64,000 nt of DNA from contig NZ_CP109171.1 in the NCBI RefSeq assembly GCF_036246005.1, positions 6,126,001 through 6,190,000 on the forward strand. The letters run 5' to 3'. This stretch comes from Streptomyces sp. NBC_01723 (GTDB lineage Bacteria; Actinomycetota; Actinomycetes; Streptomycetales; Streptomycetaceae). Shown here piece by piece: positions 6,231 to 29,380 of this stretch. A program made the position numbers and the translations under genes. Positions within the stretch are counted from its first letter, which is position 1, and each line of letters starts with the position of its first letter. A model generated the notes under the pieces. That model had not been told where the DNA came from. It did no database searches and worked only from the letters and a program-made list of their open reading frames with translations.

Positions 6231-6410
6231 TGTGACCTCGCTCACTCGCTGGGTGGATTTGACTGGTATGCCGCGCATGGTCCTTCAAGATCGCCTTGGG
6301 CAACCATCGGGACGTATGCAAAGCTCCGCTCGAACCACGCGGAATGGTGGGTTCCGGTTAGCGCAGGCCGGGTCAGCGCTCATTCGGGGGCTACAGCAAG
6401 GATCTCGTCC

Positions 6411-6965
6411 ATGTTCAAGCGGCATTTCGCGCGCAGAGAGGCGCAGCTGAGGCGACTGTGTGAGGAGCAGTTGCGGGGGATCGAGATATCCGATCCCTAC
6501 GCGGTGGATGAAATATGCCGGCAGCTCGCCATCAAGCGTGGCCGCCCCCTGTACCTCCACGAATTGCCTGAGACCGGAGGGGCCAACGCTCCCTGCGGAA
6601 TGGTTCTCTCGTTCGACCACAGGGATTACGTCTTTCACGTCACGGCTACCAGCGAGCGGCATCGTGCGCAAATCGTGCGCCACGAGCTAGCGCACCTGCT
6701 GCTCGGGCACGCCGGGAACAACGAGAGCGTCGTCACGTCTCTACTGGGAGTCCTCCCTGACGGGGTCGACCCCTCTGCCGTGCTCTCCGCTCTCGGCCGG
6801 ACGAGCTACGACAGCGAGACCGAGTACGACGCCGAAATGGCCGCCTCCTGCCTGGGAGAGCTCTTTCACGATCTTGCCCACTCGGGCCGGGAACGCGGTC
6901 GGTCCGGTGCCGTGGCGCGGCTCGACGACGCCCTGGTCCACCCACGGAGGAACCGCCGCTCATGA
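6411..6965 (+). CDS. ImmA/IrrE-family zinc metallopeptidase
   Basis: 184 aa. HELAH (residues ~91-95) in the context SERHRAQIVRHELAHLLLGH is the HExxH zinc site, and a distal acidic region (SETEYDAEMAASCLGELF) supplies the expected third ligand helix. This is the ImmA/IrrE fold. Relatives cleave a partner XRE repressor, as in ICEBs1 ImmA/ImmR or IrrE/DdrO. The XRE gene lies 180 bp upstream on the same strand and the next gene overlaps the stop by ATGA, so the set is probably one operon. A decayed relative with HRLAH lies at about 55.1 kb. Confidence 0.85.
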   Translation: MFKRHFARREAQLRRLCEEQLRGIEISDPYAVDEICRQLAIKRGRPLYLHELPETGGANAPCGMVLSFDHRDYVFHVTATSERHRAQIVRHELAHLLLGHAGNNESVVTSLLGVLPDGVDPSAVLSALGRTSYDSETEYDAEMAASCLGELFHDLAHSGRERGRSGAVARLDDALVHPRRNRRS

Positions 6966-8161: not shown

Positions 8162-8744
8162 TGTCCGCCCCCGCGAGTCGCGGCTGGCCCGCCGCATTAC
8201 AGACTGGCTTGAGCCGAAGAACTGGATCATTGCTGTCACGCTGCTGGTCGGCTGGCACACCGAACAATGGGCAGGTGTGGCCTGGGGAGTGGTCGGCGCC
8301 CTCTTCGCGGCCGTCATCCCGATCACCTTCATCAAGTACGGCATTCGCAAAGGCCACTGGGGTGACAGACACGTCGGAGCGAAGCCAGCACGACTAGTCG
8401 TGATGGCCGTCATCCTGCTCTCCGTAGCCACCGGCATCGTCCTGATGCTCGTCGCGGGAGCGCCGAGCACCATGGTTGCCCTCATCGTCTCGATGCTCGT
8501 GACGCTCGCGATCCTCACCGCAATCACCTTCGCCTGGAAGATCTCCGTCCACCAGGCCGTGTCCGCAGGTGCCTGCGCGATGCTTGTGCAGACCTACGGC
8601 CCGTGGATGGCCCTGGGCTTTCTCTTGGTCATCGTCGTCGGCTGGTCCCGCATCGAACTGCGCGACCACACACGCAACCAAGTGATCGCAGGCACCATCC
8701 TCGGCACCATCGTGGCCGCAGCCGTCTTCCACCTGACGCGCTGA
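8151..8744 (+). CDS. PAP2-like (phosphatidic acid phosphatase-type) membrane protein
   Basis: 197 aa from ATG 8151, overlapping the previous stop by 11 bp. There are about six transmembrane helices. The last third has GWSRIELRDHTRNQVIAGTILG, matching the third PAP2 signature (SR..L..H..sQVl.G) with the catalytic-type His. The first signature (KxxxxxxRP) is not clearly present and the PSGH box is missing or degenerate, so enzymatic activity is doubtful. It is the last gene of the XRE/ImmA/MAB_1171c unit and may dephosphorylate lipid phosphates or only bind them. Confidence 0.68.
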   Translation: MTTDVRPRESRLARRITDWLEPKNWIIAVTLLVGWHTEQWAGVAWGVVGALFAAVIPITFIKYGIRKGHWGDRHVGAKPARLVVMAVILLSVATGIVLMLVAGAPSTMVALIVSMLVTLAILTAITFAWKISVHQAVSAGACAMLVQTYGPWMALGFLLVIVVGWSRIELRDHTRNQVIAGTILGTIVAAAVFHLTR

Positions 8745-8840: not shown

Positions 8841-9692
8841 CTAAGCCGATGTGGATGTCCACGGGCGGGATTCCCACCATGAGCGGATGGAGGCGGCTCC
8901 GCTGCCCTTGGCGAGGGATCCGTCCGGGTGGCGGTCGGGCACTCCCAGCAGCTGCTGCTCGATCGGGGTGAGGGTGGGGTCTTTCCGTAGGTCGGTGGCG
9001 GGGTCGTCGACGGGGTGGAGCCATCGGTACCCGTATTGCAGCATGAGGGCGATGCGGGGGCGGCCGGAGAAGTTGATGCCTCCGGTGTGCCACGTCCGGT
9101 TCTCGAACAGGACTGCGTCGGTTCCGGCAATGTCGGGCGTAACAGCGCCGGGCGGGTCGATGGCGCCGGCGGGGACGACGGGTTCTTCGGTGAGGCGGTG
9201 GCTGCCGGGGAGGAACATCGTCAGCCCGCAGTCGGGGGTGACGGGGGTGAGGTAGTGGGCCGCTTTGATGGCCATTCGGGGGGTGTGGGGGAAGCCAAGG
9301 TCGGCGGTGACGCCGTACATGTCGCGATGCCAGCCGTGGCGCTCGGGGATGCGGATGGTGCGGGGCTGGCCGCTGGGCAGGGCGATGAGGTGGGCGGAGA
9401 GCAGGTGGATGTTGGGGCTGAGGAGCTGGACGACGGTGGGCAGGACGGCCGGGTTGGCGAGGAGCGGGAGGAAGGCGCGGTCGAGGGTGAGGCATCCGCG
9501 GAAGCCGTCCTTGCCGTCGCCTCCTCGGTCGCGGCCCTGGGTGATGTTGCTGGCCAGCAGCTTCTCGGCGGCGGTCAGGAGTCGGTCTCGGAGGTCCTGG
9601 GTGATCGCGTCGCGGATGACCGCGTACCCGTCGCGGTCGAAGGCGTCGATGGTGCCGGCGTCGGGGGCGGCGGGCGGGAGCGGGGTGCTCAT
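8841..9692 (-). CDS. Phytanoyl-CoA dioxygenase (PhyH)-family Fe(II)/2OG oxygenase
   Basis: 283 aa, start ATG 9692, overlapping the phosphoketolase-like stop (ATGA). The sequence begins DAFDRDGYAVIRDAI, the typical PhyH N-terminus. The metal site is HxD in RHGWHRDMYG and a distal His in ENRTWHTGG, followed by SGRPRIALMLQYGYRW, whose Arg would bind the 2-oxoglutarate carboxylate. Family members hydroxylate small molecules, often natural-product intermediates. It is the last gene of the 14-gene run, convergent with the PAP2-like gene; the 96 bp between them contain no clear terminator. Confidence 0.85.
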   Translation of the reverse strand: MSTPLPPAAPDAGTIDAFDRDGYAVIRDAITQDLRDRLLTAAEKLLASNITQGRDRGGDGKDGFRGCLTLDRAFLPLLANPAVLPTVVQLLSPNIHLLSAHLIALPSGQPRTIRIPERHGWHRDMYGVTADLGFPHTPRMAIKAAHYLTPVTPDCGLTMFLPGSHRLTEEPVVPAGAIDPPGAVTPDIAGTDAVLFENRTWHTGGINFSGRPRIALMLQYGYRWLHPVDDPATDLRKDPTLTPIEQQLLGVPDRHPDGSLAKGSGAASIRSWWESRPWTSTSA

Positions 9693-11803
9693 GGGACCGG
9701 TGTCTCCTTCGGGGTGTCGGTGAGGGTGGTGGCGAGCTTCCACAGGCCGACTTCGTCGAGGCCGCAGAGGCGGCGGAGGTGTTCCTGGGAGACGGGGCGG
9801 CCGGGGTCGCGGTAGCCGAGGACGGTGAGCCGGGGCCCGGGATGGCGGCGGCCGAGGAGGGCGTGGATGTCGGCGGGGTGTCCGCTGGTGGCCAGGATGA
9901 TCGGCGCCCGGGTGCCGAAGTGGCGGGCGAACGCGTCCGGGTCGAGGGCGAGGGGGCGGGTGCCGTTCTCGGCGAGGGCCGTGAGGTCGTGGACGTGGAT
10001 GTACCGCAGGCGCAGGCCGGGGCGTTCGGCGTGCAGCCGCCGGGCGAGGGTGGTCAGGGCCTCGGCGGGCAGGTCGCCGGCGGAGGCGAGGATCAGGCCG
10101 GGCTCGCCAGGGCCGGGGTGGGTCAGGTGGGGCCAGATCGCGATCCCGTGCCGCAGCTCCTCGTCGACGGTCTCCAGCGGGTGCTGGAGGTGCGTGTGTT
10201 TGCCGGCGACGACGATCGTGCACCGGTCGAGCTTGCGCAGGGCGAAGGTGAGGGCGGCGGCGGCGCGCGCGGGGTCGGCGGGGGTGAGGACGTGGAGCGT
10301 GGGGTCACCGCCGGCCAGAAGTGCCGTGGCGAGGCTGGGGTTTTGGTGGGTGAAGGTGTTGTGCCAGCCGAGGCTGGTCAGGAGGTAGACCAGGCTGGGC
10401 AGCGGGGCGAGCCCGGCGTGCCGGCGCACGGACCGGTGCTTGAGCTGCTGCTGGATGAGGCTAAGGGTGATCGGCGCGAACGCCTCGTAGGTGGCGACGA
10501 GGGCGTGCCGGCCCGTCTCGGTGTAGCCCTGGGCCCAGGCGTGGCACAGCTCCTCGTTCAGAACTTCCACCGCCCATGGCGCCGGCCGTCCGTGCTCGTC
10601 GGTGAGGTCGAGGCGGTTGGAGGCCAGCTCGTCGGGGCTGAACACGCGAAACGGTCCCTGCTCGGCGCGGGTCCGCAGGACCTCGGGGGCCGCCTGCGCG
10701 AACGGGCGCCCGGCGGCGTGGGCGGCGCCCCGGGCGGAGGCCGCGACGCAGCCGCGCGGCGCCGGGAGGCTGCCGGGCTCGGGCCGGGGTAGCGGGAGCG
10801 CGGCCAGCAGGTGCGGCCGGGGCCGGCCTTCGGGGGTGAGGAGCTGGGCGGGCTGGTAGGAGGCCAGCCAGTCGGCGAGCACCTCGAACCCGGCGCCGGC
10901 CGGGTCGAGCAGCGGCGTCTTGTGGACCGCCGGGGTGCCGGCGAGGCGGGCGGGGGCGCCGTGGCCCTTGTCCAGGGTGAGGATCAGGACGCGGGAGGAC
11001 CCCGGGATGCCCAGGGGCTGGGCGGCGGCGAGCGCTTCGGCCAGCGCCTGGCGGAGCTGGCCGGTGTCGAGGCCGTCGCTGTAGACGGGCCGGTGGCCAA
11101 GCCCTGTGAAATAGGCGGTGAGTTCGGTGCGGCTCAGGGCGGACAGTACGCTCGGGCCGCCCATGCGCAGGCCGTTGAGCAGGACGACGGGCAGGACGGT
11201 GCCGTGGTCGCCCGTACCGTGCAGCGCGCGGGTGGCGAGCCAGGAGGCGGCGGTCGTCCCGGTCTCGCACTCCCCGTCGCCGATCAGGACCACCGACAGC
11301 CGGTGGGGGGCGTCGAGGACGGTGCCCTGTCCGATCGCGAGGGCGGGCCCGAGCTGGCCTCCGGTGTGCAGGTGGTCAGGGATCATCGGGGTGATCTCCC
11401 CGCCGATGTCGGCCCGGGGGAAGCCGGAGACGAGTTCGCGCAGTCCGGCCTCGCTCTGGGACAGGCCGGGGTGGGCGCGGCCGAGTCGGCCGGTGAGGTA
11501 CGCGTGGGCGAGGGCGGAGGGCCCGGCGTGCCCGGCGCCATGCAGGACGTGCAGGTCGTAGCCATCGGGGACGGCCGCCTGGAGCGGTCCCAGGGCGGCG
11601 AGCATCCGGTTAACGGGCGGGCACACCCCCCAGTGCCCGGCCGGCCGGGGCTTGATGTCGGCCGGGGTCAGCGGTCGGGCCAGGAGCGGGTTGTCGCGCA
11701 GGTAGAGCTGGGCGAGGCAGAGGTAGTCGAGCGCGTCGGCGACGGCGGCCACCGACGCGTCGGGCACCAGGCGGTTCGTGCGGCGGGCGAGGTCAGCCCA
11801 CAT
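9689..11803 (-). CDS. Phosphoketolase-like thiamine diphosphate enzyme (short, divergent)
   Basis: 704 aa from ATG 11803 (GGAGGACCGC upstream); canonical phosphoketolases are near 790-830. Landmarks in order: GHWGVCPPVNRM (GHWG), HGAGHAGPSALAHAYLTG, IGDGECETGTTAASW (ThDP/Mg region), VLLNGLRMGG, NEELCHAWAQGYTETGRHALVATYEAF (catalytic Glu loop) and the C-terminal domain with ILATSGHP and VLGYRDPGRP. True enzymes cleave xylulose-5-P or fructose-6-P to acetyl phosphate plus an aldose phosphate. The shorter length and altered motifs suggest a different sugar-like substrate within the pathway encoded by this operon (inference). Confidence 0.85.
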   Translation of the reverse strand: MWADLARRTNRLVPDASVAAVADALDYLCLAQLYLRDNPLLARPLTPADIKPRPAGHWGVCPPVNRMLAALGPLQAAVPDGYDLHVLHGAGHAGPSALAHAYLTGRLGRAHPGLSQSEAGLRELVSGFPRADIGGEITPMIPDHLHTGGQLGPALAIGQGTVLDAPHRLSVVLIGDGECETGTTAASWLATRALHGTGDHGTVLPVVLLNGLRMGGPSVLSALSRTELTAYFTGLGHRPVYSDGLDTGQLRQALAEALAAAQPLGIPGSSRVLILTLDKGHGAPARLAGTPAVHKTPLLDPAGAGFEVLADWLASYQPAQLLTPEGRPRPHLLAALPLPRPEPGSLPAPRGCVAASARGAAHAAGRPFAQAAPEVLRTRAEQGPFRVFSPDELASNRLDLTDEHGRPAPWAVEVLNEELCHAWAQGYTETGRHALVATYEAFAPITLSLIQQQLKHRSVRRHAGLAPLPSLVYLLTSLGWHNTFTHQNPSLATALLAGGDPTLHVLTPADPARAAAALTFALRKLDRCTIVVAGKHTHLQHPLETVDEELRHGIAIWPHLTHPGPGEPGLILASAGDLPAEALTTLARRLHAERPGLRLRYIHVHDLTALAENGTRPLALDPDAFARHFGTRAPIILATSGHPADIHALLGRRHPGPRLTVLGYRDPGRPVSQEHLRRLCGLDEVGLWKLATTLTDTPKETPVP

Positions 11804-12446
11804 GCGGTCCTCCCTGCCGGGTGAGGGCGGCTTCGACGGCGCGGGCGTGGACGGTGCCCTCCCGGTCCAGGCGGGCCGGGGCACCCGCGGGGCAGTCGAC
11901 GATGGTCATGTGCCGCCCGTGCGGGCAGATCCCACCGTCGACGACCGCGGCGATCCCGGCCCCCGCGGTCCGCTCGAAGGCGACGACCTGGGCGGCGGTG
12001 AGCGCCGGGTGGTCCCTCTCGCCGGCGGCGGGGGTGGAGATGCTGCACACGGCGGCGGCGAGCGGTTCGCCAGCCAGGGCGACGAGGCGGCCCAGGATCC
12101 CGTCGGGGCATCCGGCGAGCGCCGGGGAGCCGACCGCCGCCACGGTCTCCGCGTCCTGCTTCCACGGAAGGCGCAGCGCGAGGTCCCCCGGCCACAGGGC
12201 GCCGGCCAGCAGGCGGGCATCGGCGCTCAGGTCGAACAGGTCCTCGGCCGTGATGAAAGAGTCGAGCAGGAGCAGTAGCGGCTTGTCAGTGGGGCGCTGC
12301 TTGGCGCGGAAGACCGCGTCCGTGGCGGCCGGTTCGGCGGCGTGGGCACAGAGCATGTACCAGCGCGGGGTGGGCACGGCAACCACCCGCCCGGCGGCCA
12401 GGAGCCGGGCGGCGGCGGGGAGCTGGTCGGGGGTGAGGACATCCAC
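11793..12446 (-). CDS. YrdC/Sua5-like domain protein
   Basis: 217 aa. GTG 12446 has AAGGGG upstream; GTG 12464, overlapping the previous stop, is an alternative. AAARLLAAGRVVAVPTPRWYMLC aligns with the Sua5/YrdC start (usual TDTVYGL), and FRAKQRPTDKPLLLLL matches the KxRP..KPL nucleotide-binding segment. Normal YrdC makes threonylcarbamoyl-AMP for tRNA t6A. The altered PTPRWYML core and the biosynthetic neighbours suggest a specialised carbamoylation or adenylation role instead (inference). It overlaps the phosphoketolase-like start by 11 bp. Confidence 0.78.
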   Translation of the reverse strand: MDVLTPDQLPAAARLLAAGRVVAVPTPRWYMLCAHAAEPAATDAVFRAKQRPTDKPLLLLLDSFITAEDLFDLSADARLLAGALWPGDLALRLPWKQDAETVAAVGSPALAGCPDGILGRLVALAGEPLAAAVCSISTPAAGERDHPALTAAQVVAFERTAGAGIAAVVDGGICPHGRHMTIVDCPAGAPARLDREGTVHARAVEAALTRQGGPHVG

Positions 12447-12460
12447 GGTGCGCCGCCCCT

Positions 12461-13231
12461 TCACGCGGTGCCGAGGCGGGCGCGGTCGGCGAGCGCCGGG
12501 TACTCCAGCCATGGGTTCGACAGGGCGGCCAGGGCGAGGTCGGGGTGCTGGGCGTGTTGGATACGGAAGTACGCCATCACCCTCGGGGTGCTGCTGGTGT
12601 TGATGCCGACGCGGTGCGGGACGAGGTGGTGCATCACGATCACGTCGCCGGGCTCGGCGGTGAAGGCGGTGCCGTCCTGGGCGTCTATGTCGTCGGGGGT
12701 CTGGGCCGGCTGTCCCTGGACCCAGTCCGTGGCGAAGTAGCGGGCCATCCGGTGGTGCCCGCCGGGCACGTAGTGCAGAGCGCCGGCGTCCGCAGTGGCG
12801 CTCCCGTCCAGGACGACGCCGATGATGAAGGTGAACGTGCGCAGGTCGGACGGTTCCAGGTGAGGGCAGGAGACGCCGTCGACGTGCATCGCCTTCACCG
12901 GCTGCTTGGCGCCGTGCGGCAGCCGGATCTGGATCTGCGTCCGGGTGACCGGGGCGATGCACGAGGGCCGCAGCAGGTACTCGGCCAGCTCCGCCAACCC
13001 ACTGTGTTCATAGAGGGCGAGGAGGTGGGGGTGCTCTTCCAGCTCCGGGGCGAAGCTGCGTTCGGTGTAGGCGGTGAGCCACGCGGGGTCGTACGCCTCG
13101 GTCAGCCAGCCGCCGACGAGGTCACGGGCCCGGGACAGGACGTCGCCGTGGACCAGGCCACGGCGTATGAGGACGCCTTCGTTGACGAACAGACTCTGCT
13201 CGTCGTCGCTCCATATCTCGGGTCGGGGCAC
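12461..13231 (-). CDS. Second PhyH-family Fe(II)/2OG oxygenase
   Basis: 256 aa from ATG 13231 with GAAGGAG upstream. MHVDGVSCPHL carries the HxD pair, and GDVIVMHHLVPHRVGIN the distal His, with SSTPRVMAYFR supplying an Arg for 2OG. It is distinct from the first PhyH protein of the run (8841-9692) and shorter, so the two probably act on different positions or intermediates. A 76-bp gap to the methyltransferase gene upstream is one of few breaks in the operon and may hold a secondary promoter. Confidence 0.83.
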   Translation of the reverse strand: MPRPEIWSDDEQSLFVNEGVLIRRGLVHGDVLSRARDLVGGWLTEAYDPAWLTAYTERSFAPELEEHPHLLALYEHSGLAELAEYLLRPSCIAPVTRTQIQIRLPHGAKQPVKAMHVDGVSCPHLEPSDLRTFTFIIGVVLDGSATADAGALHYVPGGHHRMARYFATDWVQGQPAQTPDDIDAQDGTAFTAEPGDVIVMHHLVPHRVGINTSSTPRVMAYFRIQHAQHPDLALAALSNPWLEYPALADRARLGTA

Positions 13232-13307
13232 GGTGGATCTCCTTCCGGAAGAACGGGACAGGGCTGGGGCGGGAAGGTGGCCGCCCCGGCGAAGAGGGGG
13301 GCCCGGG

Positions 13308-14093
13308 TCAGCCGCGCCGGCCGAGAACGACCTGGAAGGAGGCGTGCTCGGTCAGCCCGCCGGCGGCGGTGTGCTCGTCGAGCAGAGCCCGGGCACGGCG
13401 CTCGAAGTCATCGACCTGCTCGCCGAACAGCGGCCGGGCGGCGAAGGACGTCGAGTACAGGTAGCCGATCACCATGTCGGTGCTCCACTCCCGCTCGACG
13501 GTGATCGTGTGCTCCTCGACCCGGCCGAAGGCGGACTCGGCGAGGATCTCGCGGTACGGCCGGTTGTGCACCGCGTACGTCTTGCCCGCCCCGGCCCGTC
13601 GCTCCTCGCCCAGGTACTCCTGGATCAGGGCTCGCAGGGCGTCGGTCCACGCGGTGCGCGCGGTCCATAGGCTGCCGTCGCCCATGACCGCGACGGTCGC
13701 GTCCGGCGCGGTCATGCTCTCCAGCCGCGACAGCACCACGTCCTGGTCCATCCAGTGGAACGCGCGGCAGACCGTGACCAGGTCGGCCCGGTAGGAGGCA
13801 GACGGGGTGAAGTCCTCGGCCGGGGAGTTGTGCAGGCGGACGGTGACCGGCAGCCCGGCCAGCGCCTTGTCCGCCTCGGCGAGCATCCCCGCGTCCTGCT
13901 CGACGACGTCGATCTCCGTCACCTCCCCGGCCAGGGCGAGGGGGACCTGCCCGGTGCCGGACCCGAGGTCCAGCAGGACCCGGTGCTCCTGGCCGGCCAC
14001 CCGCCGGGCGAGCAGCTCGACGGCCTCTTTCGGGATGCCGGGCCGGTAGGTGGCGTAGAACGGGGCGGTGGTGTCGAACTCGCTCTTGCTCAC
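13308..14093 (-). CDS. Class I SAM-dependent methyltransferase
   Basis: 261 aa from GTG 14093 (AGGAGC upstream), overlapping the HAD stop (GTGA). FDTTAPFYATYRPGIP is a typical start, followed by LLDLGSGTGQVPLALA (motif I, SAM binding), IDVVEQDAGML (motif II acidic residue) and VTVCRAFHWMD (motif IV). This is the UbiE/Trans-aconitate methyltransferase-like fold. The substrate cannot be read from sequence. Operon position suggests tailoring of a small molecule. Confidence 0.87.
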   Translation of the reverse strand: MSKSEFDTTAPFYATYRPGIPKEAVELLARRVAGQEHRVLLDLGSGTGQVPLALAGEVTEIDVVEQDAGMLAEADKALAGLPVTVRLHNSPAEDFTPSASYRADLVTVCRAFHWMDQDVVLSRLESMTAPDATVAVMGDGSLWTARTAWTDALRALIQEYLGEERRAGAGKTYAVHNRPYREILAESAFGRVEEHTITVEREWSTDMVIGYLYSTSFAARPLFGEQVDDFERRARALLDEHTAAGGLTEHASFQVVLGRRG

Positions 14094-14788
14094 GAGGTGG
14101 TGCTCCTGATCGTGTGGGTTGACGGGAGGAGGGTCTGCTCGATGTACCGGACCGCGCGGGCGAGGCCCGGTACGACCGCGACCCGGCCGGGGTGCTCGGC
14201 CAGCAGCCGCAGGGCTTCGGCCGACGGCGGGCGCGGGGTGATCCACAAAGCCTGGGCTCCGGCGGCGAGAGCGCCGCGCACGTCGTAGTCGAGGCTGTCG
14301 CCAACGTGCAGCACCTCCGCGGGATCCCTGTCGTGCAGCCGGGAAACAGTCTCCACGGCGCGCGGGTCCGGTTTGGCGAACCCGATCCGCCAGGAAGGGT
14401 GATGGGCCCGCAGGTGGGGGGCGAGAAGGGCGGCGACGTCGGTCTCCCGCTCGTCCCAGTGGCTCACGTTCGACAGGGTGACCACCGGCACGACCCGGGC
14501 GATCCGCGCCACCGCCTCCACCGCGCCGGGCCACAGGGCGAAGGCGGGCGGACGGTGGTCGTGGGGGAAGGCGGACGGCGCGATGCCCAGGGCGGCGCAC
14601 ACCGTCTGCGGCCCCGTTTTATCGGTGCTCGGGTCCAGGGCGTGCAGGATCCGCTGGGCGACCCGCTTCGCCTCCCGTGCCGGGCGCGGGGACAGCTCCA
14701 CCAGGCGCTGCGTCAGCGTCGTCCCGGACGGCTCGCCCAGGGTGTACCCGACATCGAGGCTCACCAGCCGCACCGGCGCCGCGTTCAC
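14090..14788 (-). CDS. HAD-superfamily hydrolase
   Basis: 232 aa from GTG 14788, overlapping the upstream stop (GTGA). Motif I is LVSLDVGYTLGE, with the nucleophile Asp retained but the second Asp of DxD replaced by Gly, as in some HDHD3/YjjG-like members. Motif II is VVTLSNVS, motif III the Lys in GFAKPDPRAV, and motif IV HVGDSLDYDVRGALAAG. It probably dephosphorylates a sugar phosphate or nucleotide. Loss of the second motif-I Asp, normally the general acid/base, may lower or change activity. Confidence 0.85.
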   Translation of the reverse strand: MNAAPVRLVSLDVGYTLGEPSGTTLTQRLVELSPRPAREAKRVAQRILHALDPSTDKTGPQTVCAALGIAPSAFPHDHRPPAFALWPGAVEAVARIARVVPVVTLSNVSHWDERETDVAALLAPHLRAHHPSWRIGFAKPDPRAVETVSRLHDRDPAEVLHVGDSLDYDVRGALAAGAQALWITPRPPSAEALRLLAEHPGRVAVVPGLARAVRYIEQTLLPSTHTIRSTTS

Positions 14789-15234
14789 GAACGGCCTCCC
14801 AGAGTCGTGATGATCATGGCGATCCGCTCGGTGCGTACGGATGCGGAGCCGGCCTCGCCGAGGAAGGTCAGCAGGTGCCGGGCCTCGGCCGGCGACCAGC
14901 CACCGGTGTCGACGCCGGCTTCGGCAGCCGCCTGGGCGAGGTCGTCGGGGATCGCCGGCGGGCGGGCACCGTGCGGAATCAGCAGCGTGCCGCTCCACTC
15001 CTCGCCGGCTCGCTCCTGCGGCAGGACCGGGGCGAGGGGAGAAAGAACGGTGACGTCGTCGAACGTGAGGATCCGCACCCCGACTTCGGGCAGGTGCACC
15101 GGCTGTTCGAGGCGCAGGGTCGTGGACAGGAAGGTATCGCGCCCGCTCAGCCGCTCGTCCACGACGAGCAGCGTCTTCCCTTCGCGCTGCCGCAGGTGGC
15201 CGTGGACCGCCAGTTCACCGGTGTGCCTGGGCAT
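14785..15234 (-). CDS. Hypothetical protein with YdeI/DUF1905-like tail
   Basis: 149 aa from ATG 15234, sharing a base with the enolase-family stop (TAATG). The N-terminal half is beta-rich (LAVHGHLRQREGKTLLVVDERL...). The tail GWSPAEARHLLTFLGEAGSASVRTERIAMII resembles the C-terminal helices of YdeI/OmpD-associated proteins (SPxxRREYLxWIxxAkxxxTRxRRI). The function of that family is not settled. The resemblance is short, so I treat the gene as unknown but real because of its coupling on both sides. Confidence 0.6.
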   Translation of the reverse strand: MPRHTGELAVHGHLRQREGKTLLVVDERLSGRDTFLSTTLRLEQPVHLPEVGVRILTFDDVTVLSPLAPVLPQERAGEEWSGTLLIPHGARPPAIPDDLAQAAAEAGVDTGGWSPAEARHLLTFLGEAGSASVRTERIAMIITTLGGRS

Positions 15235-16286
15235 TACCGGCGCACCTCCATCCCGAGGCCGGGCCGGTCGGGGAGAACGACGTGCCCGCCGTCGGGCCGG
15301 AGCGTGCCGCGCAGCGCCCGCTGCCGCCTCGGCTCCCACACCACCTGGTACTCCACCGCCCCCGCCGCGTCGGGGAAGGCGGCGGCCAGGTGCACGGCGG
15401 GCAGGAACGCCCGGCCGTGCAGGTGGACCGGCACCCTCGCGTCGAGGGCGGCGCCCAGCCAGCCTCGCGCCTCGGTGATGCCGCCGCACCACACCACGTC
15501 GAACGTGAACGCCTCCGGCCGGCAGTCCTTCAGCAACCCCCTGGCGTCCTCCAGGTGGGACAGCCGCTCGCCGAACGCGACCCGAAGGCCCTCCGACCGG
15601 CTGCGCAGCCGGGTATACGCGGTCCGGTCGGTCCGCGCGAGCGGGTCCTCCACCCAGCGCACCATCTCCGAGTCGAGGAGAGGTGCGACCTCCATGGTCC
15701 GCAGGTGGCCCCAGGTGCCCAGGGCGTCCACCGCCACACTGTGCCCCGCCCACGCTGCCGCACGTCTGGCCAGCAACACCATCTCCGCGGCTTCTGCGCC
15801 GCCACGTAGAGCCCACTTGGTGAAGGTGAACCCCTCGCCAGCGGTCGCCTTGACGGAGTCGGCGGCCGAGGCAGCAGCCAGGTCCAGGGAGAGCCAGGAT
15901 GCGTAGACCGGCACCCGCCGCGCAGGCCGGTTGCTGAGCAGAGCCGCGACAGGGAGGTTGGCGAGGCGGCCGTGCAGGTCCCAGACCGCGCAGTCCAGCA
16001 CCCCGACCGCCCAGCGCCCGAGCCCTTCTGCGCGCGAGCCGAGTTCGGCCAGGAGCCTTCGCAGCAGTCCCGTGTGGTCGGCCACCGGGTGCCGCAGCGC
16101 GCTCTGGCCGAGCCGGGTGGCGACGAGCGCGGCGGGCAGCTCGTCGACCGGGGCAAACACCCCGGTCTCCCCGCTGGCCTCGACCACTACCGCGTACCGA
16201 CTGTCGCCCGCCTTCCACGGACCGGCCACGCTCTCGTCGAGGCGCTCGACCCGCACCCGGTCGATGACCGCGTCAGCGGGGTCCAT
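15234..16286 (-). CDS. Enolase-superfamily enzyme (mandelate racemase/muconate-lactonising type)
   Basis: 350 aa, ATG 16286, overlapping the radical SAM stop by 14 bp. GRWAVGVLDCAVWDLHGRLANLPVAALL is the typical capping/barrel start. Metal ligands appear as VDALGTW (Asp), VEDPLA (Glu) and FGERL (Glu), with a Lys in FTFTKWALRG at the end of the second strand. Family members abstract an alpha proton from a carboxylate. The first KxK Lys is the only obvious base on that side, which fits a dehydratase, cycloisomerase or epimerase subgroup that I cannot name. Confidence 0.84.
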   Translation of the reverse strand: MDPADAVIDRVRVERLDESVAGPWKAGDSRYAVVVEASGETGVFAPVDELPAALVATRLGQSALRHPVADHTGLLRRLLAELGSRAEGLGRWAVGVLDCAVWDLHGRLANLPVAALLSNRPARRVPVYASWLSLDLAAASAADSVKATAGEGFTFTKWALRGGAEAAEMVLLARRAAAWAGHSVAVDALGTWGHLRTMEVAPLLDSEMVRWVEDPLARTDRTAYTRLRSRSEGLRVAFGERLSHLEDARGLLKDCRPEAFTFDVVWCGGITEARGWLGAALDARVPVHLHGRAFLPAVHLAAAFPDAAGAVEYQVVWEPRRQRALRGTLRPDGGHVVLPDRPGLGMEVRR

Positions 16287-17391
16287 CGACGAGGTCCTCT
16301 CCGGCGAAGGTGAAATACCACAGCGGCCGGTAGCACTCCCAGCCCACCGGCCGCAGCCCGGTCGATGCCATGGCCCGCTCGATCACCGTGCGCGCCTGCA
16401 GGTAGTACTCCAGGCTCTCCGCGCCCGGTGTCCGCATCCCTTGCATGATCACCGTGTGTGCTTGGAAGACTTGGAAGTTCGGAAACGCGGTGACCTCGTC
16501 CGCAAGCTCGTTCACCCCGTGCGCGAGGTCGTCCATCGGGTCCAGGCCGACGATGTACGTGTACGAGGTGTCCAGCCCTGCCTTACGCGCCCGTGCCAGC
16601 AGGTCCGGCATCTTGGCCGGCCCAAGGTCGGCCTTGGTCGCCTTCATCAGTGCCTCGCGACGGGTGAAGTGCTCGGTCGTCAGCCTGAGTACGAACGGCG
16701 ATACCTTCGAGGCGATGGCCTCGAACGCCTCGTCACTGCGCAGTACGGAGGTGAGGAAGCCGATCCGAGCCGTGACGCCGGCCCGCTCCAGGGCGGGACG
16801 TAGAGCGGTCAGGTGCGCGACTGCGGCGTCCTCGCGCTCGAAGCAGCCGGTGGAGACGGTGACTTCCTCCAACTCGCATAGATTGCGGCGGGGGTGCTGC
16901 TCGTTGAGGGCCCGCAGGAGTGCATCGAGGCCCTGGTCCTCCTGCATCCTCGGATCGGCGGCGGCCTCCAGGGTGTTCGGGCACCAGCCGCACCCGACAC
17001 ACCGGCTCCGGGCATTGGGGTTCAGGGTCGCGGCCCGGCCACCGTTGCGGAAGTAACCTCCAACTGCCTCGTCGGCATCAATGCGCTCGACGTTCGCGAC
17101 CACCGCGCCGTTCAGCGATAAGTCGTCGCCACGCAGTCGGAACGGGCTGGCCGGCTGGTTCAGCGGGACGATGATCTGCCAGGCAGTGTCGGGGCGGCGT
17201 ACGAGGCGGAGGTTGACCCGGGCCCGGTGACGGTCGTGGTCAGAGGTGATCCCGTACAGGTTGACGGCGATCAGCAGCACGTCCTCGACAGGGACTCCGT
17301 GGCGAAGAGCGACCTGCTGCAGATCGTGGAGTCGGTCGGTACCGACGGCGCCGTCTGAGGATATGGACCGGCGCATGGAGAGGTGCGGCAT
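16273..17391 (-). CDS. Radical SAM-like protein with unusual CX2CX2C cluster motif
   Basis: 372 aa from ATG 17391 (GGAG upstream). An N-terminal ~130-residue domain precedes RCVGCGWCPN, a CX2CX2C motif where most radical SAM enzymes have CX3CX2C. The downstream region looks like the barrel: EEVTVSTGCFERED, ARIGFLTSVL, VLRLTTEHFTRREAL, GLDTSYTYIVGLDPMDDL and FQVFQAHTVIMQGMR. The operon suggests a carbon-skeleton or dehydrogenation step. If the spacing is real, this is an atypical subgroup; another Fe-S TIM-barrel protein is an alternative. Confidence 0.72.
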   Translation of the reverse strand: MPHLSMRRSISSDGAVGTDRLHDLQQVALRHGVPVEDVLLIAVNLYGITSDHDRHRARVNLRLVRRPDTAWQIIVPLNQPASPFRLRGDDLSLNGAVVANVERIDADEAVGGYFRNGGRAATLNPNARSRCVGCGWCPNTLEAAADPRMQEDQGLDALLRALNEQHPRRNLCELEEVTVSTGCFEREDAAVAHLTALRPALERAGVTARIGFLTSVLRSDEAFEAIASKVSPFVLRLTTEHFTRREALMKATKADLGPAKMPDLLARARKAGLDTSYTYIVGLDPMDDLAHGVNELADEVTAFPNFQVFQAHTVIMQGMRTPGAESLEYYLQARTVIERAMASTGLRPVGWECYRPLWYFTFAGEDLVDGPR

Positions 17392-17491
17392 GAAGAACTC
17401 CAGCTTGGTGTTGAGCGGTGTGTGTTGCTACCGGGGATGCGACACGTACGTCGTGTCGCGGGAGGGCATCGGAGGCGGCGGTCAGCGCGGC

Positions 17492-18667
17492 CTACTTGGC
17501 TGGGGCGAAGGCGGTGAAGTGCGCCGGCGGGTGGTCGACGGGCAGGTCGGGCCGCCAGGACGTGAGGATCTGGGCGCTGCATACGAACAGGCCGTTGGGG
17601 AGCTGGTCGAGCGGGTACCACGCCCAGTCGCCGACGCTCTCGTCCGGCTGCGTCAGTGGCTGTCCTTGCCAGGCGTGGACGAGCGCGCCGACGGTGACCC
17701 GCAGGACCCCCTTGACGTGATCGACGAGCGTGCCCAGCAGTTCCACGTCGCCGGTCCGAGCGACCAGGCCGGTCTCCTCGGTGAGTTCTCGGACGACCGC
17801 CTCCTCGAAGGATTCTCCGGTGGCCTCCACGCTGCCGCCTGGTAGTTCGAGGGTGCCGCGGCGATGTCGGCCCAGCAGGATGCCCTGCTCGCTGAGCAGG
17901 ATCGCTCCGACGCCGACTGCCGCGTGGGCGGCCGGGCCTCGGGTGCTGCGGGGCCGGCTGGTAACGCGCGTCGGCCGGTCGGGAAGGCGCCGGGCGCGGA
18001 TGAGCTGCTGGATTACCTTGGCGTTCTCGCCGGGGTGCGGGAACAGGTCGATGGCTTCGACGCGAAAGCCGTACTCAGTGAGCAGGTCCTCCCACAGCTG
18101 CGGTGCCAGGACCCACATCTGCGTCGGCAACGGCGGGTCGTCGCGCAGCAGGATCATCTGCTCGCGCGGCGCCACTGCCGTGGACGGACCGTGGCCGTGC
18201 AGATCGGTGTGCAGGAGCGAAAGGAGCAGCGGGGCATCGGGACGCAGACCATCGCGCAGCGCAGGCAGCGAGCGGTGCGGGTCGATGAAGGCGAGCGTCC
18301 CGATCGCGTACGCGGCGTCGAACGGCTCGGCTCCGCCCAGGTACTCGGCCACGTCTGCCCGGACGAACTCCACGCCGTCCACGTCCACGTGAGTGCTGAC
18401 GGCCCGTTCGTGCTGGGTCGGGGACAGCTCGATGCCGGTGACCCGCGCTCCGTGTACTTGGGCGAGGTGGACGGCGTGGTGGCCAGCCCCGGAACCGATG
18501 TCCAGGACGCGGCGGCCAGTGATGTCGCCGAGGACTTCTGCTCCCGGCCCGATCCCGTCCCAGGGCGTCCAGCCGAGCCGCTCGGGGACGGGCGGGGCGT
18601 AGGCGCGAGCGAGTTGGCGCTGGCCGTAGATCTGCCAGGCCCGGATGTTGGTGTCCTCGGCGGGCAC
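17492..18667 (-). CDS. Methyltransferase-Nudix hydrolase fusion
   Basis: 391 aa. Residues ~40-210 are a class I methyltransferase (RRVLDIGSGAGHHAVHLAQ motif I; VTGIELSPTQHERA motif II). Residues ~245-380 are a Nudix domain (GAILLSEQGILLGRHRRGTLELPGGSVEATGESFEEAVVRELTEETGL). The joint is a basic Pro/Arg linker. There is no stop or start signal between the parts, so a true fusion is likely. A methylated nucleotide or nucleotide-linked substrate would explain joining the two activities (inference). Confidence 0.85.
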   Translation of the reverse strand: MPAEDTNIRAWQIYGQRQLARAYAPPVPERLGWTPWDGIGPGAEVLGDITGRRVLDIGSGAGHHAVHLAQVHGARVTGIELSPTQHERAVSTHVDVDGVEFVRADVAEYLGGAEPFDAAYAIGTLAFIDPHRSLPALRDGLRPDAPLLLSLLHTDLHGHGPSTAVAPREQMILLRDDPPLPTQMWVLAPQLWEDLLTEYGFRVEAIDLFPHPGENAKVIQQLIRARRLPDRPTRVTSRPRSTRGPAAHAAVGVGAILLSEQGILLGRHRRGTLELPGGSVEATGESFEEAVVRELTEETGLVARTGDVELLGTLVDHVKGVLRVTVGALVHAWQGQPLTQPDESVGDWAWYPLDQLPNGLFVCSAQILTSWRPDLPVDHPPAHFTAFAPAK

Positions 18668-18695
18668 GCTTGCCTCCTGAGTGGGGATGCCGGGG

Positions 18696-19706
18696 TTAGG
18701 TGTGCGTGTTCCGGGCGCGTTCGACGACCAAGGACCAGGGAGCTATGGCGCTTGTGCGGCGATGCAAGCCCTCGATGAGCTTGCGACGGGAGAGGTCGAC
18801 GATGACCGCGTGGTGATCGCTGAGCCCGGTGGTATCCAGCACGCGGACGTCTTCGACGGCCTGCACGCTCCAGGCGTCCAGATAGCCGCGGTCGATTCTC
18901 CGGGGGCCACCCTGACCGGCGGCAGCATGCCCGGCGGTCGCAGCCAGTGCGGTCGTCTGGCCCAGGCGGTGTGCGGCCCAGCGGGCGGGGTCGTGCATGC
19001 CGCAGTCATGCATGATCTCGTCCACCGCGGTGCAACTGACCCAGGTGCCGTCGGGTTGCTTGATGGCACGGTGCCGGCGGTGCACCACGTCAGTCACCCT
19101 TGACCAGTCAATGGCCGGGACCTGCTCGCCGACGGGCACCGGGTACTCGTTGGTGTCGCCGAACAGCCAGCAGGCGGCGTGACCCCCGGCAGGGTTCGGA
19201 TGGTGGGCCTTCACCTTGTCGACGAGTTCCGTCAAGTCCATGGCTTCGGAGCGGCGTTGTGCGGGGTTGCAGAAGGCGCTGTGGAATGAGGCGGTGATGA
19301 TGGGCACGTCCGGGGCCTCGGCGAGCCGCAGGTCGACGTGGGTGGGCGGTGCACTGTGGCCGACGGGGTGGTGACGCTGGCGGGCAGAGGGAAAGACGGC
19401 CTCGCGTATGAACACACCGGTGGGATTGGTGCGCTGCCCTACCGCGGCACGGAAGCCGCGCATACCGAGGATCTGCTGTGCGGCCGTGAAACGGCGCTTC
19501 GCCGCGTGCTTCTCCGCCGGTGGCACGTCTGGCCGGGTCTGTGAGTATTTGAGTTCCAGCATGGCCAGCCAATCTGGCCGCTGTGGCTTCAGGACCTCTT
19601 CGTAGCCCTGGCGCCACCGTGCCGGCAGGACGCCGGGCCGGGGCTCCGGGCCTCCGTCGCGCTCCAGATTCCACAGCATGAGCCGGATGCGGTCCTGCGT
19701 GCTCAC
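18696..19706 (-). CDS. Endonuclease/exonuclease/phosphatase (EEP)-family protein
   Basis: 336 aa. IRLMLWNLERDGG at the N-terminus is the EEP Asn-site strand, and DWLAMLELKYSQ carries the metal-binding Glu. ITASFHSAFCNP, WLFGDTNEYPV (GDxN) and GLSDHHAVIVDL (SDH) complete the catalytic set. Family members hydrolyse phosphodiesters or phosphomonoesters in nucleic acids, lipids or nucleotides. With three Nudix proteins in the same operon, a small nucleotide-like substrate is plausible. It follows the ASCH-Nudix gene after 32 bp. Confidence 0.83.
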   Translation of the reverse strand: MSTQDRIRLMLWNLERDGGPEPRPGVLPARWRQGYEEVLKPQRPDWLAMLELKYSQTRPDVPPAEKHAAKRRFTAAQQILGMRGFRAAVGQRTNPTGVFIREAVFPSARQRHHPVGHSAPPTHVDLRLAEAPDVPIITASFHSAFCNPAQRRSEAMDLTELVDKVKAHHPNPAGGHAACWLFGDTNEYPVPVGEQVPAIDWSRVTDVVHRRHRAIKQPDGTWVSCTAVDEIMHDCGMHDPARWAAHRLGQTTALAATAGHAAAGQGGPRRIDRGYLDAWSVQAVEDVRVLDTTGLSDHHAVIVDLSRRKLIEGLHRRTSAIAPWSLVVERARNTHT

Positions 19707-19738
19707 TGTCTACCTCCACGGATGATGAGAACGGCCAG

Positions 19739-20689
19739 TTACAGCTCGTCCGACGGGCAGGGCATCTCCTTCGCGGGCATGCTGGGGCAGGTGTGGGTGA
19801 CGAGGTAGGCGGGGCCCTCGCCGCGGCGTGCTTGCTCGACGGCGTCGAGGCGGACGAAGGCGCGGGGTGCCATCAGCTCCTGCCATGTGGTGAGGTCGTG
19901 GATGGCCCACATGTCGTGCTCATCTGGGTCGAGGCGGATCCGGCCGAGCTGATCCGCGCTCAGCCGGCCTCCGTCGAAGATGAACCCCACCTTGTTCAGC
20001 GGCAGGCGGGGCCCGGCGTGCAGGAAGTGCGTCAGGAGCAACTTCGGCCTGCCCAGTCCCAGTCCGAGGCCCGTCTCCTCGACCGCCTCGCGCCGGGCGG
20101 TCTGCAGCGGGTCCTCGCCCAGGGCGTCCAGGTTGCCGCCCGGGAACTGCCAGAGTCTCGAACCGTAGACCGAGCGGAGCTGGATGGGCCGGTCGTGCTC
20201 GTCGCGGATGTACAGGCAGCCGTAGACGGTGTGGTGGGGGACGGTCTGCGCGTAATCCTCGGCCGTCATCGGCATGGAGCGCCCTGGCCGGGCAGGGCGA
20301 TGGTCGAACGTGAAGGCGAGAACGCCGAGCGCTTCCTTGACGGGCGGGTAGATGCTGCGGAGGGCGGCGAGCACCGCCCCGGGCGGTCGGTCCGGGTCGA
20401 TGTGCGCGGGATCCTCCGAGCCGAGCAGGTCCTTGAAGGAGGGGTACGAGGTGATCCGTTGCACGGTGACGTCGAGTTCCCGGCCGGTGTCCCGGTCGTG
20501 GAAGACGACCGTGTCGCCGGCGGCGACGGTCCGCTTGTTCGGGGTGGCCACCCTGACCTCGATCGTCTTGCGGCCTGCCTCCACTTGGCGGTAGTACCGC
20601 CCGAGCAGGTGCATGTGGTGCTCTTGCGGGCCGTTTCCGCTGGCCGGGCTCGGGCTGGCCGCGGTCGCCTGTTGGATGTCGTCAGGCAC
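19739..20689 (-). CDS. ASCH-Nudix fusion protein
   Basis: 316 aa. Residues ~25-130 form an ASCH-type domain (HHMHLLGRYYRQVEAGRKTIEVRVATPNKRTVAAGDTVVFH..., the usual E/K-x-R core). Residues ~150-300 form a Nudix domain (WQFPGGNLDALGEDPLQTARREAVEETGL). ASCH domains bind RNA or modified nucleosides, and the E. coli example YqfB hydrolyses N4-acetylcytidine. The pairing suggests recognition plus cleavage of a modified nucleotide. As in the MT-Nudix protein, the Nudix box has one extra residue before GE. Confidence 0.82.
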   Translation of the reverse strand: MPDDIQQATAASPSPASGNGPQEHHMHLLGRYYRQVEAGRKTIEVRVATPNKRTVAAGDTVVFHDRDTGRELDVTVQRITSYPSFKDLLGSEDPAHIDPDRPPGAVLAALRSIYPPVKEALGVLAFTFDHRPARPGRSMPMTAEDYAQTVPHHTVYGCLYIRDEHDRPIQLRSVYGSRLWQFPGGNLDALGEDPLQTARREAVEETGLGLGLGRPKLLLTHFLHAGPRLPLNKVGFIFDGGRLSADQLGRIRLDPDEHDMWAIHDLTTWQELMAPRAFVRLDAVEQARRGEGPAYLVTHTCPSMPAKEMPCPSDEL

Positions 20690-20788
20690 ACGTGCCTCCG
20701 TTCGATGCCTTGCGTCTGTTGCCGGTCTGGCCGTCGTAACCGGGCCAGGGTGTGGTGGCCGCGCTCCCGTGGCGGGGCTGCGGGCGGG

Positions 20789-22066
20789 CTAGGGCAGTTC
20801 AATCGGTCCATAGCGCGCGTGCGGTTCCTGCCGCATCAGGGCGTCGTACCGGTCTGCTGCCGAGAAGTGCCAGAACTCGGTCCCGTAATTCGTGAAGCCG
20901 GCGCTCTCCATCGCGTCGAGCAGCAGCGTGCGGTGGTGACGCGCACGGTCGCTGATGTTCGTGGCGTGCGTGAAGCAGGCCCCGTCGCTTTCCTCCGGGG
21001 AGGCGTTGACGCGGGTGCCGAGGTCGAGTTCGTGGCCGTCCTGGTCGACGAGGGTGACGTCCACGGCCGCGCCCGCGGCGTGGGGCGCGATCTCCGGCGG
21101 CGACACGTACCGGCTGGCGTTCTGGTGCAGCTCCTCGGCGGTCCAGTCAGGGTGGGCGGCGGCCAGGTGGTCCCGGTACTCGGTGAAGTAGCGCTGCTGG
21201 AGGGCGAGCGGCCGGTAGCCCTCGATGAACAGGAGGTCGGTGCCGGCGGGCAGGAGCGAGCGGGCGTGCTCCAGGCGCGCCAGGACGCCCTCGCGGACGT
21301 GGGCGAAGGCGCCCAGCGAATCTCGCTTACGCGGGTCGACACGGAAGTCGTGGTCCCGTACGTCGACGAGGGGTTCCCCGCACTCGCGCACCGGGACTGC
21401 GGCGACCTGCGGGTCGGACATCAACACCAGTTTGCTCATTGAGGCTCCCTGTGACGGCTTGTCCTGCGGCGGCGGGATGGGGGAGGCAGAGGCGAGGTCG
21501 GTTTCGAGCAGGATTCGCGCGATGGTGTCCCGGAGCGTGCTGTCGGCCGGGATCACGGTTTCCAGCGCGCCGGGCAGCAGGTCCATCTCGCGGTACCAGG
21601 AGGCGAGGTGGCTGTCGGTGACCTGGGCCAGGTATGCGGCGTCCGCCTTCGACGCGTGCCGTACCAGCGTCGCCTCCAGGGGAACGTCCAGGTAGTAGCA
21701 GTGGGAGGCGCCGCGGTGGTCCCGTACCAGCGATGTGATCATGTGGCCGTAGCGGTCGGCGTACAGGATCCCTTCGAGGACGACGTGGAAGCCGGCGTCG
21801 AGGGCTGCGCGGGCGATCGTGCTCAGCAGGGCGATGTTGGCGCCGCGCGCGGTGTCGTGTTCCCTGAGCACGTTCCGGCGGATCACGTCCTGGCCGACGA
21901 TCGCGATACCGCGGCCGTAGTGATCGCGCAGGCCCTGGGCCACGCTGGACTTGCCTGACGCCGAGTTGCCGCGGATCACCACGAGGCGGGTATCCTCCCG
22001 GCCGACCGCAGCTGTTGTGGACACACGACGGGGTGCGCCGCTCGGGGTGCCGGTCACGCGGGCCAT
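20789..22066 (-). CDS. P-loop kinase-VanX-like D-Ala-D-Ala dipeptidase (M15) fusion
   Basis: 425 aa from ATG 22066 (GTG 22057, overlapping the previous stop as GTGA, is an alternative). Residues ~28-195 are a zeta-toxin/AAA-type kinase (VVIRGNSASGKSS P-loop; VGQDVIRR; HVVLEGILYADRYG). Residues ~210-425 are an M15D dipeptidase with FIEGYRPLALQQRY, PHAAGAAVDVTL (H-x6-D zinc site) and TEFWHFS (ExWH). An in-frame ATG at 21439 follows AGGGAGCC, so the peptidase may also be made alone. VanX-type enzymes cleave D-Ala-D-Ala, and the kinase half may phosphorylate a small molecule. The pairing could serve self-resistance or peptide maturation. Confidence 0.82.
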   Translation of the reverse strand: MARVTGTPSGAPRRVSTTAAVGREDTRLVVIRGNSASGKSSVAQGLRDHYGRGIAIVGQDVIRRNVLREHDTARGANIALLSTIARAALDAGFHVVLEGILYADRYGHMITSLVRDHRGASHCYYLDVPLEATLVRHASKADAAYLAQVTDSHLASWYREMDLLPGALETVIPADSTLRDTIARILLETDLASASPIPPPQDKPSQGASMSKLVLMSDPQVAAVPVRECGEPLVDVRDHDFRVDPRKRDSLGAFAHVREGVLARLEHARSLLPAGTDLLFIEGYRPLALQQRYFTEYRDHLAAAHPDWTAEELHQNASRYVSPPEIAPHAAGAAVDVTLVDQDGHELDLGTRVNASPEESDGACFTHATNISDRARHHRTLLLDAMESAGFTNYGTEFWHFSAADRYDALMRQEPHARYGPIELP

Positions 22067-22746
22067 CCCGTCTCGCTGTACAGCTCCCCGTTCTGGATCT
22101 TTGCGATGGCCACCCGGGTGTAGGGGACGAGGTTGTCGGGGAGCGCGGTGGGGTACCAGAATTTCCACTCGGTGCACTTGTCCGGCTCGCGCAGTTCCGG
22201 CTCGCCACTCCAGGCGCGAGCGCGGAAGAACAGGCCCATGCGGGGCCGGTCCCCGGCCTTGTCGATGTGGTGGATGACGTGGACGAGTTCGACGTCCTGA
22301 CGCTCGATGTGCAGCCCTGCTTCCTCACGTGCCTCCCTGATCAGGCACGTGATGGCGTTCTCCTGCTCACAGTGGCCGGCCAGCGCGTGCCAGGTCGAGG
22401 GCGCGAACGCGGAGTCGGGGTGGCGCAGCCCGAGCAGCACCGTCCCGTCGGAGCGTTCCAGGTAGAGGTGGACGCCAATGACGTTGGGGACCGTGCCGTG
22501 CGGTGACGCCGGACGCTGTTCTTCGAGCTTGGGGTCGCTCGGCATCGCCGGGAGGCTGGCGGCGTGGCGCCGTACGAGGTCGCTGGTGGTGTCCGCGATG
22601 CGCAGGCGGTGGAGGTCGTCGGGGGCGAACCACTCGTCGCGGTAGAGGTATTCCTCTTCTCGAACACCGGCATCCTGCTGTTCGACGTCCGGCGCGGTCC
22701 CCTTGGGTGGTTGCGGCGGCTGGTCCTGCGTAATAGCCGAGGTCAT
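22054..22746 (-). CDS. Nudix-family hydrolase, first gene of the cryptic operon
   Basis: 230 aa from ATG 22746 (AGGGGGAACG upstream). An N-terminal ~90-residue extension (YLYRDEWFAPDDLHRLRIADTTSDLVRRHA) precedes the Nudix fold VIGVHLYLERSDGTVLLGLRHPD...WHALAGHCEQENAITCLIREAREEAGL. Spacing between the Gly and first Glu of the box is one shorter than the consensus. The C-terminus EWKFWYPTALPDNLVPYTRVAIAKI is typical. It probably hydrolyses a nucleoside diphosphate linked to another group. The next gene starts within its last codons. The 235 bp upstream, to the lanthipeptide-side gene at 22982, hold no other gene. Confidence 0.84.
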   Translation of the reverse strand: MTSAITQDQPPQPPKGTAPDVEQQDAGVREEEYLYRDEWFAPDDLHRLRIADTTSDLVRRHAASLPAMPSDPKLEEQRPASPHGTVPNVIGVHLYLERSDGTVLLGLRHPDSAFAPSTWHALAGHCEQENAITCLIREAREEAGLHIERQDVELVHVIHHIDKAGDRPRMGLFFRARAWSGEPELREPDKCTEWKFWYPTALPDNLVPYTRVAIAKIQNGELYSETGWPA

Positions 22747-26141: not shown

Positions 26142-26178
26142 GGAGGGGCAACTCCTTGCACGTCGGCAGGTTCGGGGG

Positions 26179-29285: not shown

Positions 29286-29330
29286 CAGGGCTCTCCTCAT
29301 CTTCCTGTGTGGCGGGCGGGTTGGGCGTGG

Positions 29331-29360: not shown

Positions 29361-29380
29361 CGTTGCCGGGGTGATCCGGC

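Follow-up and report, generated by a model that had tools for sequence, protein, structure and literature searches.

A run of 14 tightly packed genes on the minus strand of Streptomyces sp. NBC_01723 raises the question of whether so varied a set of enzymes serves a single pathway, and what that pathway would make. The run lies at 22746 to 8841 of the window, the 64,000-nucleotide stretch of the 8.85-Mb genome that was analyzed here (GC content of the window 65-73%); positions below are those of the window unless another locus is named. In the order of transcription the genes are lettered M to A, with F2 between G and F. The preliminary description, made from the sequence, took all of them for one cryptic operon directed at a nucleoside- or nucleotide-linked metabolite. 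The run itself is confirmed by open reading frames, gene calling and measured spacing, each gene overlapping the next or lying at most 100 bp from it, and a codon-usage gene caller trained on the genes of the window returned the same 14 genes, L alone with a later start. Genome comparisons indicate that the 14 genes are of two kinds: the nine genes H to A (17391-8841) are co-inherited, and the five genes M to I (22746-17492) are a separate accessory module. We consider it likely that H to A form a dedicated biosynthetic operon for a small molecule, with a phosphoketolase acting as a biosynthetic enzyme and M to I adjoining it in this lineage.

Conservation of the core genes

Genomes of the genus (392) were searched for H, which encodes a radical SAM (S-adenosylmethionine)-type enzyme, and the 20-kb stretches around the matches were gene-called and clustered together with 30 named loci from the genome collection. 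H was found in 27 of the 392 genomes including its own, in 19 of them over an alignment of at least about 320 residues, and in five of 394 genomes of the class, again including its own. This distribution is sporadic, as expected for specialised metabolism. Removal of duplicates (L064, L071, L076, L079, L080, L087, L088) and of loci in which no H was called, being fragments or solo pieces of H (L043, L059, L061, L089, L090, L092), left 39 distinct loci; L058 and L062 were not clustered. The gene caller missed some genes, and H of L068 was called short.

G, F, E and B accompany H in 33 of the 39 distinct loci, 32 by gene clustering and L073 by a profile recheck that recovered the whole class II set; H is broken in one of these complete loci (L060). 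Of the remaining six, L040 and L082 run into the end of their contig short of the last core gene, L051 and L056 carry internal deletions, L044 is missing B alone within the 20 kb read, and in L052 H stands by itself. The gene set thus recurs beyond chance, and in the co-occurrence test suggested by the preliminary description the phosphoketolase, radical SAM and enolase-type genes hold strongly together. The kinase-M15 gene L, also named in that test, does not follow them consistently.

Six parts (H, G, F, F2 or an OmdA-like counterpart, B and E) stay together across six arrangements that differ in order and in fusions. Class I, the arrangement of the window, reads H-G-F2-F-E-D-C-B-A. Class II, found in Streptomyces, Salinispora, Actinoplanes, Saccharopolyspora, Geodermatophilus and others, reads H-B-G-F2-F-E-creatininase-D-C, and class III reads H-G-F-[GGDEF+OmdA]-B-A-E, where brackets mark a fusion. 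The fourth arrangement, on plasmid pNF1 of Nocardia farcinica, is H-G-F-GGDEF-OmdA-B-E with two further radical SAM genes and a methyltransferase gene. The fifth, on a plasmid of Mycobacterium intracellulare subsp. chimaera, is GGDEF-H-G-[HAD+OmdA]-B, with E nearby on the opposite strand, and the sixth, on a contig of another family, is F-E-creatininase-B-H-(weak F2)-D-ATP-grasp-like-G-C. The core-bearing plasmids of M. intracellulare subsp. chimaera (L097) and N. farcinica (L098) were typed as mobilizable.

Separation of the accessory module

The module M to I was found elsewhere without the core, and the core without the module. In the clustered loci, I, K, L and an M-type Nudix gene occur only next to class I copies or remnants, and not at every one: in L039 and L042 the genes L, K and I immediately precede H, in L063, L065 and L066 I lies upstream of H, and L040 and L041 have no I next to H. 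J found no match in any of the 24 relative loci compared, and no homologue of I, L or M adjoins the core in class II, class III or plasmid loci. The Streptomyces plasmid L099 carries the full class I core of nine genes, at 57-79% identity, without M to I in 23 kb. Two genes stand directly before the core of this plasmid, at 9539-10941 of L099: one is metallophosphatase-like, and the other, encoding an rRNA-adenine-dimethylase-like protein of 199 aa, is a possible self-protection gene.

The converse is seen in the genus. I was matched in 111 of the 392 genomes (E ≤ 1e-40), against 27 for H (E ≤ 0.001). Nearly full-length relatives of I with at least 74% identity occur in 19 genomes. H went unmatched in 12 of them, and among the other seven, G246 and G070 have no more than fragments of it. 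L-type fusions near full length and with at least 82% identity occupy 15 places in 14 of the 392 genomes, two of these places being in the own genome, and six of the 14 genomes gave no H match; these absences, for I as for L, come from a search that scored few candidates per genome, so that single misses are possible. I and L stand together without H in G116, and in G290 they lie at 2.9 Mb, far from a class II core at 6.7 Mb. In G253 a deletion scar joins the last 80 bp of A directly to the 5' part of H, and both flanks match.

A possible promoter common to the loci before H was considered: alignment of the stretch upstream of H in nine class I loci showed mainly a conserved ribosome-binding stretch, with patches common to the loci that have I upstream. 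The own genome also holds, at about 7110147-7110614 (L058 10148-10615), 468 bp that repeat the beginning of H together with the gap before it, 95.7% identical and surrounded by open reading frames that look transposase-like by eye.

The module is as closely packed as the core: M and L overlap by 13 bp, and gaps of 99 bp (L-K), 32 bp (K-J), 28 bp (J-I) and 100 bp (I-H) follow. M (22054..22746, minus strand as all 14) has a single Nudix domain and, to judge from its relatives, probably arose by a deletion that joined a triple-Nudix gene to an open reading frame upstream of it. In L041, L051 and L061 about 3-5 kb separate the counterparts of its residues 1-38 and 39-230; the counterpart of M in relatives is a gene with three Nudix stretches, and several have an ABC transporter and more Nudix genes in between. 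L (20789..22066, 425 aa) fuses a P-loop kinase (PRK06762-type, 1.1e-57) to an M15/VanX-like part (5e-16). The own genome encodes another kinase-VanX fusion (G000:C1:7937907-7939154), which shares 86% identity with L. K (19739..20689) fuses an ASCH-like part, which at E 0.0011 and 20 bits is below the cut-off of 21.2, to a Nudix domain (1.4e-9), and I (17492..18667) fuses a methyltransferase to a Nudix domain. J (18696..19706) has no Pfam or NCBIfam match; the motifs WNLE, GDTNEY and SDHHAV, picked out by eye, are presumably those of an EEP-like phosphoesterase. The domain list of the preliminary description agrees with our searches, to which the two fusions in K and I are refinements; the fourteenth gene, F2, had been left unnamed.

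Features of the core enzymes

Within the core, H and G overlap by 14 bp, G and F2 by 1 bp (TAATG), F2 and F as well as F and E by 4 bp, D and C by 4 bp, C and B by 11 bp and B and A by 4 bp; the only gap, of 76 bp, separates E from D. The first core gene, H (16273..17391, minus strand, 372 aa), has no Pfam or NCBIfam match at the limits used, the Pfam Radical_SAM model included. Its predicted structure (predicted template modelling score, pTM, 0.83) contains the partial TIM barrel of the radical SAM superfamily. In a Foldseek search the seven best matches of the model were lipoyl synthase, with aldolases at ranks 8-9, and radical SAM enzymes led the rows of a further structure comparison. Membership of H in the superfamily is thus supported by the model, which upholds the earlier radical SAM-like call; the EEP-like call for J, made alongside it, still relies on the motifs seen by eye. 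The canonical radical SAM motif is CX3CX2C, and other spacings occur in accepted members. H has CX2CX2C (C131, C134, C137), invariant in 63 sequences, and this spacing, an extra N-terminal part and an identity of 10-16% set it apart from the lipoyl synthase, HydG, MqnE and biotin synthase group.

B (9689..11803, minus strand, 704 aa) is a phosphoketolase-type enzyme dependent on thiamine diphosphate. XFP_N (1e-54), XFP and XFP_C all score above cut-off, and PDB entry 8io8 is matched at 8e-88. Compared with the own-genome phosphoketolase and PDB sequences, B keeps the motifs HWG, GHxG, GDGExET, LNG, HxxP, SNR, the Glu before YEAF, HN/THQN and GK, which we take to supply its active-site and phosphate-site residues. 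The three-domain homology and active-site motifs are common to B and the canonical xylulose-5-phosphate/fructose-6-phosphate phosphoketolases (PDB 8io8, 3ai7). B is shorter than the genome's other phosphoketolase, which has an open segment of 832 residues and is 36% identical, and has no counterpart of two inserts of about 16 and 3 residues; unlike the canonical enzyme, it sits in a biosynthetic-type operon.

G (15234..16286, minus strand, 350 aa) is an enolase-superfamily, mandelate racemase (MR)-like protein (MR_MLE_C 5.7e-31; PDB 3ozm 5.9e-21). K157, D187, E213, E240, D263 and H290 are invariant in 13 sequences and correspond to the metal ligands, the Lys and the Asp-His set of MR-type enzymes, roles that we assume to apply here. 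C (11793..12464, minus strand, 223 aa) matches YrdC/Sua5 (PF01300, 1.2e-18) and occurs in arrangements I, II and VI. Because its score of 66.9 bits against TIGR00057 (threonylcarbamoyl-AMP synthase) falls below the curated cut-off of 123.2, C is classed on sequence as a YrdC-domain paralogue and not as the TsaC/Sua5 equivalog. The own genome holds a separate Sua5/YrdC gene, a distant relative of C (28% identity, E 0.004).

F2 (14785..15234, minus strand, 149 aa) has no direct Pfam match, PF13376 included, and was related to the OmdA (YdeI/OmpD-associated) domain by profile comparison. Its hhalign probability against the OmdA end of the class III protein is 97, the OmdA score of that protein being itself below the curated cut-off. 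Its profile also matches the HAD protein of the Mycobacterium plasmid (2.5e-13), which points to an OmdA-like domain fused to HAD there, and more weakly its counterpart in arrangement VI (6e-5). The AlphaFold model of F2 has six strands and three helices (mean predicted local distance difference test score, pLDDT, 80; pTM 0.53). The HAD-superfamily hydrolase F (14090..14788, minus strand, 232 aa; PF00702, 1.4e-8) and the SAM-dependent methyltransferase E (13308..14093, minus strand, 261 aa; PF13649, 6.7e-9) occur in all six arrangements. Two PhyH-type oxygenases complete the set: D (12461..13231, minus strand, 256 aa; PF05721, 7.8e-12) in arrangements I, II and VI, and A (8841..9692, minus strand, 283 aa; PF05721, 2e-14), the last gene, in arrangements I and III.

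Proposed pathway and alternative explanations

B and G keep their catalytic residues while the core parts stay together in shuffled orders, and family chemistry suggests a set of steps. B would split a ketose phosphate, or a phosphorylated intermediate resembling a ketose, into an acyl phosphate and a shortened aldehyde phosphate. G may take the alpha proton beside a carboxylate, leading to racemisation or dehydration, and H could carry out a radical rearrangement, cleavage or insertion. F would remove phosphate, E would methylate, and D and A would hydroxylate with Fe(II) and 2-oxoglutarate. C might convert an amine, CO2 and ATP to an N-carboxy or carbamoyl adenylate, and F2 probably binds a substrate or a partner. 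The expected product would be a small, polar, methylated metabolite derived from a sugar phosphate or, less likely, from a nucleotide.

A pathway with these core enzymes would be of a new class. No described pathway with this gene combination was found in the literature searched, by title or the start of the abstract, most subscription journals lying outside the search; to that extent the locus is, as first described, a cryptic conserved multi-enzyme set. The nucleoside pathways of polyoxin and nikkomycin combine a radical SAM enzyme, a 2-oxoglutarate-type oxygenase and a phosphatase, as the core does. We know of no phosphoketolase, MR-type enzyme, YrdC or OmdA protein in them, and no enolpyruvyl transferase was found in the present locus. 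Neither phosphoketolase, OmdA nor GGDEF is, to our knowledge, familiar from specialised metabolism. If the proposal is correct, the core marks an unrecorded small-molecule route common to soil actinobacteria and to Nocardia and Mycobacterium plasmids, and gives the OmdA/YdeI domain a biochemical setting. The core is recognisable by sequence, so it can be mined and expressed and its product sought.

Several points weigh against a biosynthetic operon. Arrangements IV, V and VI each come from a single locus, that of IV being represented by related plasmids of one species. In favour of the core, distances between its five longer proteins, taken pairwise, are correlated (Pearson 0.80-0.98 over 32 loci, 0.93-0.98 over 15 class II loci), but these correlations still include the common ancestry of the host genomes. 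A class-defining synthase is missing from the core, and neither a transporter gene nor a resistance gene is constant across the arrangements; as far as seen, the rRNA-methyltransferase-like gene precedes the core in L099 only. The motifs of B do not reveal its substrate, and the histidine of the HEGGELG loop, kept in the B protein of the window, is lost in four of four class II proteins, two of three class III proteins and the Mycobacterium protein, among those comparable. The structure search with F2 was weak, with no match at E 0.001 and 2d9r at 0.053.

In the original view, all 14 genes make a nucleoside- or nucleotide-linked metabolite and the Nudix, ASCH, EEP and kinase-VanX proteins act in the pathway or in self-protection. 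The continuous packing and the class I loci with L, K or I upstream of H fit that view; the missing I in L040 and L041, the unmatched J, the cores without I, L and M, the genomes with close I or L and no H match, and the distant I and L of G116 and G290 speak against it, and we regard it as unlikely. Since the 14 genes are not supported as one pathway, two arguments built on them lose most of their basis: that four phosphate hydrolases with YrdC and ASCH imply a nucleotide-linked product, which draws mainly on the separable module, and that the VanX-like part serves maturation or self-protection, L being in that module. Ordinary carbohydrate catabolism or repair would account for the phosphoketolase, the MR-type dehydratase-like protein and the HAD protein, all of typical catabolic families. 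Since H to A include neither a sugar transporter nor a sugar kinase but do include radical SAM and methyltransferase genes and two genes for PhyH oxygenases, since their distribution is sporadic and since the genome has a separate phosphoketolase, this explanation is very improbable. Still less credit can be given to the core as tailoring genes of the FxLD lanthipeptide cluster directly upstream (24099-29570, minus strand). That cluster looks complete, with a precursor (29381-29566; TIGR04363, 57.3 bits), LanB, LanC (26179-27249) and the FxLD methyltransferase (within 24099-29570; TIGR04364, 416 bits), and L063 and L065 likewise have LanB, a LanC-sized gene and the methyltransferase ahead of the core. 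In the other clustered loci, however, no gene within about 10 kb on each side of H clusters with LanB, the class I core of L099 is accompanied by no match to LanB or FxLD, and we know of no phosphoketolase, HAD or MR-type enzyme that tailors peptides.

A nucleotide link is now hinted at only by GGDEF in three other arrangements, a different and weaker hint. It is compatible with the biosynthetic operon proposed for H to A: the core could act on a nucleotide scaffold, derived from GTP or otherwise, with GGDEF as a biosynthetic GTP enzyme, a version that we hold to be doubtful. GGDEF joins the core in arrangements III, IV and V, fused to OmdA in class III, and protein P0240 of Nitrospira sp. joins a GGDEF of this kind to a SPASM-type radical SAM part, which is 44% identical to the third radical SAM protein of pNF1. 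The creatininase family includes the FAPy deformylases, and the creatininase found in arrangements II and VI would be in keeping with such a scaffold. Against this, no GGDEF is present in the stretches seen of arrangements I, II and VI, creatininase and GGDEF never occur together there, and a diguanylate cyclase is not distinguishable here from a GTP cyclohydrolase III-like enzyme. The GGDEF domain is known from cyclic di-GMP signalling. Slightly less doubtful, and offered tentatively, is a new pathway class in which the phosphoketolase forms an acyl phosphate or shortens a chain and GGDEF came to serve, in several lineages, as a biosynthetic nucleotide enzyme beside radical SAM and OmdA-type proteins.

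Other leads were set aside. The fusion in P0240 was considered as one of H with GGDEF; its radical SAM half is not H, being the relative of pNF1's third radical SAM protein. A GGDEF relative on a Rhizobium plasmid, a protein of 602 aa considered as a mark of a further core locus, has none of 11 core-type families within the surrounding 20 kb. Relatives of the second radical SAM protein of N. farcinica on Vibrio and Photobacterium plasmids adjoin export genes and no annotated core gene.

Neighboring genes and other observations

Roles in phage biology were also considered and rejected: nine proteins of the window and one GGDEF protein gave no match to PADLOC as anti-phage defence, and no relative of H was confirmed in viral contigs as phage cargo. 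Just past the end of the operon, at 5778-8744 on the plus strand, lie genes for a helix-turn-helix regulator, a metalloprotease-like open reading frame (by eye) and a membrane protein of the MAB_1171c family (DUF6545), relatives of which are found near the core in L045/L071, L054, L063 and L072. Farther along the window, a 291-bp tandem repeat of 3.9 copies (60708-61844) lies inside the open reading frame 60713-62131, and related repeats occur near 7.11 Mb in the same genome.

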